Below are positions 19,487 to 45,664 of a stretch of 64,000 bases of DNA, in pieces. Origin of the DNA: Pirellulales bacterium (lineage in GTDB: Bacteria; Planctomycetota; Planctomycetia; Pirellulales; JALHPA01); the NCBI GenBank assembly GCA_033762255.1, contig JANRLT010000014.1:1-64000 (forward strand), given 5' to 3'. How positions within the stretch are numbered: position 1 is the first letter of the stretch; each line of letters begins with the position of its first letter. The notes below the pieces were generated by a model. It worked only from the letters and a program-made list of their open reading frames with translations. It ran no database searches and was not told the DNA's origin. Both the position numbers and the translations under genes were made by a program.

Positions 19487-19658
19487 GTTGGACCCGCGTC
19501 CCTTGTCCCTGGCTGACGCCTCGCCCCTGTCCCTTGCTGAAGTAATGTCCCTTGCTGACGCTGCGGGCTGAGTGGTGTCACTCGCCCTCGCCCCCTAGTC
19601 CCGTCCGGCGGACGAGACCTACTTTCCCTCGCCCCTGTCCCTGGCTGACGCTGCGGGC
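19487..19658. repeat. Dispersed phrase TGTCCCTGGCTGACGC, several copies
   Basis: Four near-copies of the phrase TGTCCCT(G/T)GCTGA(CGC) appear at 19504, 19525, 19546 and 19636, two of them followed by TGCGGGCT. A hairpin CCGTCCGGCGGACGAG lies between them at about 19600, a core also seen in the inverted repeats around corA. The last copy reaches the stop codon of the DUF1570 gene. Confidence 0.6.
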
Positions 19659-44219: not shown

Positions 44220-44282
44220 ACCGCCGATACCATTGGCGGCTTTGTTTATTACGCCCGTTCCATCCGGCGGACGGGACCTACT
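44220..44282 (+). repeat. 63-bp inverted repeat, left arm before corA
   Basis: This 63-base block, beginning ACCGCCGATACCATTGGCGG, is mirrored after corA at 45524-45586 with 55 of 63 positions the same. It holds two small hairpins, CCGCCGAT-ACC-ATTGGCGG and a GTCCG/CGGAC core. Confidence 0.9.
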
Positions 44283-44310
44283 CGCCACCACCCCCCCTCT
44301 CCATCGCCCC

Positions 44311-45528
44311 ATGGCACAAAACCGCAAATCCCGCCGCAAGAAAGCGTTTCAGCGCCGCACTCCCCCCGGAGCACAGCCGGGGACGATTGCCGTTGATCCG
44401 GCGGCGGGGCAGCCCGTGGTCGAAGTCTGGGCGATCGGGACCGGAAAGACGCTGGACACCACGGTTAAGAATTTGGACGAACTGCCGGAGATTGTGGCGC
44501 GGCACACGGTGACTTGGATCAATGTGGATGGTTTGGGGGATGCCCGGACGCTACAACGCCTGGGGAGTTTGTTTCGATTGCATCCGCTGGCTCTGGAGGA
44601 TGTGGTCAATGTGCATCAGCGGGCCAAGGTCGACCATTATGAAAACTCGCTATTTATTGTGACGCGCATGCTGCGGCTGAATCGTCCAGAAGAGTGCGCC
44701 GTGGAAGGGGACGGATCTACTGAAACAGAGTCTCCCGATAGGTCGCAGCTTGATAAGCCTGCAAATGGCCACCACGAACCAGCCGCGCGCCTGGGGAACG
44801 AGCAACTGAGCATGTTTCTGATGGATAAGGTGGTGATCACGTTTCAAGATTCCCAGCCGGGGGACTGTTTTAGCGGCATTCGGGACCGCCTGCGCAAAGG
44901 GGACGAAAATTACGCCGCGCACGGGGCCGACTACTTTGCGTACCGGCTGTTGGACGCGGTGATCGATAGCTACTTTCCCATTTTGGAGGCGTATGGCGAA
45001 CGGATCGAAAACCTCGAGGAAGAACTGCTGGAATCACAACAGCCCGTCAAGCTGCAAAAAATTCACGAGATCAAACAGGACTTGCTGCTGATCCGTCGGG
45101 CGATTTGGCCCGCGCGAGAAATGCTGCACAGCCTGGCCCGTGATATCAATCCGCTTATCAAGGAAGAGACCCGCATTTACCTGCGTGATTGTTATGACCA
45201 CACGGTGCAAATTTTGGATCTATTGGAGACTTATCGCGAGTTAGGCTCCGACCTGCGGGATTTGTACCTCTCCAGCGTCAGCCAGCGGATGAATGAAATC
45301 ATGAAAGTGCTGACGATCATTTCGACGCTGTTCATTCCGCTGACATTTATCGCGGGCGTGTACGGCATGAACTTTCAGTACGATCCCGAGACGGCTCCAT
45401 TTAACATGCCGGAACTGTACTGGTACTGGGGTTATCCGGCCTTCTGGACGCTCATGATTGTTATTACGCTGGGCATGCTGTGGTACTTTGTGCGTAAAGG
45501 CTGGATTGGCAGCGGCTGGTGGCGGTAG
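44311..45528 (+). CDS. corA: CorA-type magnesium/divalent cation transporter
   Basis: The protein (405 aa) is a CorA magnesium channel subunit that forms a pentamer. It has a large cytoplasmic N-terminal domain, a long helical stalk (TRIYLRDCYDHTVQILDLLE and following), and two C-terminal membrane helices, the first ending at the hallmark YGMNF (VYGMNFQYDPE), the second in TLMIVITLGMLWYFVRKGW. The N-terminal 30 residues are Arg/Lys/Gln-rich. The ATG at 44311 is preferred; the open frame to 44233 runs through the left repeat. The stop codon TAG (45526-45528) lies inside the right-hand repeat, so a repeat unit now forms the gene's end. Confidence 0.95.
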   Translation: MAQNRKSRRKKAFQRRTPPGAQPGTIAVDPAAGQPVVEVWAIGTGKTLDTTVKNLDELPEIVARHTVTWINVDGLGDARTLQRLGSLFRLHPLALEDVVNVHQRAKVDHYENSLFIVTRMLRLNRPEECAVEGDGSTETESPDRSQLDKPANGHHEPAARLGNEQLSMFLMDKVVITFQDSQPGDCFSGIRDRLRKGDENYAAHGADYFAYRLLDAVIDSYFPILEAYGERIENLEEELLESQQPVKLQKIHEIKQDLLLIRRAIWPAREMLHSLARDINPLIKEETRIYLRDCYDHTVQILDLLETYRELGSDLRDLYLSSVSQRMNEIMKVLTIISTLFIPLTFIAGVYGMNFQYDPETAPFNMPELYWYWGYPAFWTLMIVITLGMLWYFVRKGWIGSGWWR

Positions 45529-45586
45529 GTCCTGTCCGCCGGACGGGACCTGGGTAATAAACAAAGCCGCCGATGGTATCGGCGGT
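45524..45586 (-). repeat. 63-bp inverted repeat, right arm after corA
   Basis: This is the mirrored copy of 44220-44282, differing at eight positions; the changes are concentrated in the middle. Its first bases provide the last codon and stop of corA. Confidence 0.9.
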
Positions 45587-45603
45587 CTGTGGGGGGGAGC
45601 GGT

Positions 45604-45664
45604 GGGGCAGGGGTGCGGAGGGGCAGGGGTGCGGAGGGGCAGGGGAGCGGAGGGGCAGGGGTGA
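45604..45664. repeat. 16-bp tandem repeat, about 3.7 copies
   Basis: The unit GGGGCAGGGGTGCGGA is repeated at 45604, 45620 and 45636 (third copy with one change), then partly at 45652. It lies between corA and trpE, which converge here. Confidence 0.9.

Follow-up and report, generated by a model that had tools for sequence, protein, structure and literature searches.

Dispersed REP-type hairpins very probably account for the inverted repeats that bracket a corA gene and hold its stop codon

Introduction

A corA gene in the genome of a Pirellulales bacterium (NCBI GenBank assembly GCA_033762255.1) lies between two inverted arms, the right one of which also holds its stop codon. The question raised by this locus is whether the arms delimit a mobile or invertible cassette, or whether they are two members of a repeat family that happen to stand in opposite orientation. 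Both readings had been offered in a preliminary description of the sequence. Here, we examined the arms within a stretch of 64,000 nucleotides (contig JANRLT010000014.1, positions 1 to 64,000; hereafter the window) and followed their components through the whole genome. The features on which the analysis rests are as follows, with positions given in the window.

44220..44282, minus strand: left arm, an R1 + R2 compound that lies in the corA leader in the opposite orientation
44221..44244, minus strand: R2 copy of the left arm, 1 mismatch
44257..44281, minus strand: R1 copy of the left arm, 2 mismatches that weaken the hairpin
44311..45528, plus strand: corA, gene for a CorA-like Mg2+ transporter of 405 aa (Pfam PF01544, 216.7 bits), between the two arms
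45524..45586, plus strand: right arm, an R1 + R2 compound, sense to corA
45525..45549, plus strand: R1 copy of the right arm, a GTAG-tagged REP, 1 mismatch to the consensus, whose GTAG holds the corA stop TAG
45562..45585, plus strand: R2 copy of the right arm, a CAAAG-tagged hairpin, exact consensus
19598..19622, minus strand: R1 copy standing alone outside the corA locus, 1 mismatch

Results

The two arms and the corA gene

The inverted arms are real, as the preliminary description had stated: direct comparison of 44220-44282 with 45524-45586 gave inverted identity at 55 of 63 positions, and a separate repeat search returned 62 nt at 89% identity as an inverted pair around corA. The window contains the 18-nt core shared by the arms two times, where shuffles would give 0.04 on average, so the match is far beyond chance; the longest perfect run common to both arms is also 18 bp. 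Each arm is made up of two unrelated dispersed hairpin repeats, named R1 and R2 here. Two strong hairpins are predicted for the right arm (RNA fold -36.8 kcal/mol, z -3.5; DNA fold z -4.8). In the left arm, whose R1 copy directs its GTAG at the corA start 29 bp away, both stems are partly lost and the DNA fold of its own strand is no better than that of shuffles (z -0.07); the left arm is decayed. Had the arms been maintained as a pair of recombination sites, such decay would not be expected. Directly 3' of the right arm, at 45594-45657, we also observed four copies of a G-rich 16-bp tandem unit, GGGGTGCGGAGGGGCA, and similar G-rich purine tracts stand behind many R1 and R2 copies genome-wide.

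The corA stop codon does lie inside the right arm, the TAG at 45526-45528 being the last three bases of the GTAG (45525-45528) that opens this arm. The ATG at 44311 is a chosen start, and a longer open frame extends back to 44233, within the left arm. Relatives of corA were found in 24 of the 39 genomes searched, and Planctomycetota records are among the CorA relatives, which is the basis for calling the host planctomycete-like. The protein ends in ..RKGWIGSGWWR and the relatives in ..RRKGWLGNGR, each directly before the stop. Because these end points are about the same, no truncation of corA by the repeat is visible. A search of the corA leader up to E 1 gave no Mg2+ riboswitch or other Rfam element, one chance match aside, and in no relative did corA lie in synteny with trpE or the citrate transporter within the flanks compared.

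R1 is a GTAG-tagged REP element

R1 (consensus GTAGGTCCCGTCCGCCGGACGGGAC) was found at 57 genome sites at ≤3 mismatches and the 20-nt core of R2 (consensus CAAAGCCGCCGATGGYATCGGCGG) at 163 sites at ≤2 mismatches, while the reversed control patterns gave none; both are near-palindromic hairpins, so a few sites in these totals may be counted on both strands. The genome counts rest on pattern searches and on the stretches around the copies, in which genes were called with a home-made codon score. The counts of orientation and position draw on 59 R1 and 114 R2 copies, all of them distinct, together with their flanking sequence.

Structurally, R1 consists of an unpaired GTAG at the 5' foot, a perfect 9-bp stem and a 3-nt loop, and changes in the stem are compensated in variants such as GTCCCGCTCGCCGAGCGGGAC and GTAGGTCCCGCTCGCCGAGCGGGAC, as judged by eye without a formal count. 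R1 is intergenic in 54 of the 57 copies examined, the window being about 74% coding. Its tag end points toward the nearest gene in 44 of 49 copies (p 8e-9). This orientation was seen at gene 3' ends (31/32) and also tended to occur at gene starts (13/17), where a role in mRNA alone would not account for it. All 19 copies that lie ≤15 nt from a stop are in the sense orientation. Furthermore, a long coding frame terminates in 9 of 58 intact copies, each time at the TAG of GTAG; among these 58 copies, no coding frame enters R1 in either of the other two frames. If the frame were random, nine such cases out of nine would have a chance of about (1/3)^9 = 5e-5. The supply of a stop codon by R1 is not peculiar to corA, and a 2013 survey has reported that the ends of GTAG REPs often supply a TAG stop and that Planctomycetes are among the hosts of these elements (PMC3733652). 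We class R1 as a GTAG-tagged REP element. Beside R1 copies at C16:12.1 kb and C21:185.2 kb stands another hairpin with a GTAG tag, GTAGGCACCGTCCCGGTGCCG, apparently one more REP family.

R2 is a REP-like repeat with a different tag

The foot of the R2 stem carries AAAG, usually CAAAG, and the GTAG and CGTC tags of the two published REP super-families are absent. Almost all of the R2 copies examined (105/106) are intergenic, and 71 of 93 have the tag end directed at the nearest gene (p 3.5e-7). R2 is REP-like in its conserved tag and hairpin, high copy number and intergenic position, and is differently tagged. Among 396 genomes of the order, R2 was detected at ≤1 mismatch in this genome and one other only; a related form, CAYAAAGCCGGCGATGGYATCGCCGG, has 8 and 12 copies in two genomes that belong to the same genus as that other one. 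Relatives of R2 in another family of the order keep the tag and the loop while the stem is changed on both sides (CCGGCGATGGYATCGCCGG), and many of them also lie close behind stop codons; in family f19 the tag of the relatives reads CAYAAAG. In two congeneric genomes, an R2-like element was observed at the same place within apparently the same gene, which suggests that those copies were probably inherited vertically.

Read from its tail side, R2 resembles an intrinsic terminator. At the corA locus, the R2 hairpin followed by CTTTGTTTATT might act as one: in the right arm it would serve trpE, on the minus strand, and in the left arm it would stand ahead of corA on the plus strand. Both were detected by a terminator scan, and the right one lies about 120 bp beyond the trpE stop. 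However, 56 of the 70 R2 copies at gene 3' ends genome-wide point their tag toward the gene and are thus oriented the opposite way, which argues that termination of the adjacent gene is not the general role of R2, and conservation on the T-run side is limited to CAAAG. We consider a terminator role unlikely; it would be compatible with arms built from dispersed REP-type hairpins.

Copies facing genes form inverted pairs

When the 5.47-Mb genome was searched with the right arm, 58 matches were returned, and the majority spanned just one half of the arm. Alignment over the greater part of the R1-R2 compound was seen at only about five places, including the two corA arms; the bracket thus consists of two compound copies that belong to a small subset. 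R1 and R2 mostly occur separately, at well over 100 places. Many solitary copies elsewhere are part of what the preliminary description had named as speaking against a cassette, and its suggestion of two repeat-family members in opposite orientation is borne out.

Neighbouring copies ≤300 nt apart point in the same direction in 47 cases and in opposed directions in none (clusters being counted more than once), and R1-R2 pairs defined by coordinates do so in 16/16. Given that tags face genes, two copies that flank a gene automatically form an inverted pair with tags inward; the same tags-toward-gene layout as at corA recurs in three more R1 pairs within 6 kb. Two candidate causes of the polarity were tried and rejected: the G-skew of 3' UTRs, which is weak and confined to the first 50 nt, and a replication-strand bias, as copies 0.5-4 kb apart were opposed in 20 cases and alike in 12.

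These data also bear on the possibility that recombination between the arms flips corA and thereby switches its expression. The 63-bp inverted arms bracket corA exactly and at high identity, and the corA frame and stop would survive a flip because both lie at or inside the inner edge of the arms. However, the arms are dispersed repeats with well over 100 other sites, their identity is broken into perfect runs of ≤18 bp, the left one is decayed, and no recombinase was found among the eight proteins scanned (corA and seven neighbours). An invertible cassette is highly improbable, and the mobile one that had been proposed along with it is not supported either.

Y1 transposase genes and the repeats

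For REPs, a cognate RAYT gene flanked by its own repeat is usual, but this is not required of every family. Ten Y1-transposase matches were found in the genome, one of which (C17:56080) is above the NCBIfam RAYT cut-off. Neither R1 nor R2 was detected within about 1.5 kb of these ten loci, except for one six-mismatch match at chance level; the assembly comprises 72 contigs and is about 97% complete, and an R1-linked RAYT gene could be missing from it. The RAYT gene at C17:56080 was rejected as a partner of R1 or R2, since R2 is about 1.75 kb and an R1 + R2 compound about 7.5 kb off, which is too far. No AAAG-tagged R2-like hairpins were found at the ends of IS200-type genes. At C65:129918, a Y1/RAYT-like gene below the NCBIfam cut-off has GTAG-tagged hairpins of a non-R1 family on both sides (GTAGTGGCGACTTTYAGTCGCCA and GTAGCGGCGAGGTTYCCTCGCCG, C65:129.6-130.8 kb). 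The GTAGTGGCGACTTTYAGTCGCCA type occurs at 43 genome sites at ≤2 mismatches, and the gene with its hairpins looks like a REPtron.

That corA itself was carried between two REPs as a compound mobile unit, in the way of a RAYT gene in a REPtron, is scarcely credible: the inverted bracket resembles a REPtron and the genome does have one RAYT-type gene with GTAG hairpins on both sides, but the corA bracket is without a transposase, the corA search gave a single match in this genome, and the arms differ from each other and are unequally decayed.

Discussion

We conclude that the corA arms are very probably compounds of dispersed REP-type hairpins, R1 and then R2, which are placed with their tags toward the gene and of which the right copy supplies the stop codon and the 3' UTR. 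The identity of the repeats, their copy number, the orientation rule and the stop codon are matters of direct observation. Any gene with an R1 or R2 copy on each side, tags facing it, would be bracketed by inverted repeats. At corA, the right copy abuts the gene end in such a way that the TAG in GTAG serves as the stop, and the two hairpins would become the 3' UTR of the corA mRNA; the right arm is most likely a sense-strand 3'-UTR double hairpin. As an mRNA element just past the stop, it may protect the 3' end and perhaps slow the last ribosome; such slowing has been reported for REPs of E. coli that lie no more than 15 nt from a stop (PMC12306157). The left arm would be a decaying passenger in the corA leader, and R1 may have been dispersed in trans by a RAYT-type single-strand transposase.

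What looked like an invertible cassette at corA is thereby reduced to REP repeats of a routine kind, and tag ends that face genes offer a simple reason why REPs can mimic inverted brackets around single genes. The analysis adds one GTAG REP family and one differently tagged REP-like family from a planctomycete-like genome. That GTAG REPs provide stop codons is already known (PMC3733652); for R1 this association is frame-exact, and its cause, which may be selection or targeted insertion, can be tested. On a more speculative note, R2 might belong to an undescribed (CAY)AAAG-tagged class of REPs that occurs in two families of a single order and owes its spread to an enzyme whose guide resembles that of IS608, and the strictly unidirectional arrangement of R1 and R2 relative to genes might reflect insertion directed to stop codons, with GTAG landing there, beyond mere tolerance; we regard this extension as doubtful.

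Compared with known systems, R2 resembles the ends of IS200/IS605 elements in that AAAG, the left guide of IS608 (PMC5934647), stands directly at the foot of the hairpin, but differs from them in having no transposase linked to it, and the four-letter match may be a coincidence. The corA bracket resembles a REPtron, in which a RAYT gene is accompanied by its REPs, in that a single gene has inverted hairpins on both flanks, whereas the gene enclosed here is corA and not a transposase gene. R1 is like the GTAG REPs described by Di Nocera et al. (2013, PMC3733652) in its GTAG-footed stem, its dozens of copies, its intergenic location near stops and its provision of TAG. Unlike in most of the published GTAG REP families, among which head-to-head dimers predominate (Di Nocera et al. 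2013, PMC3733652), neighbouring copies of R1 are all arranged head-to-tail.
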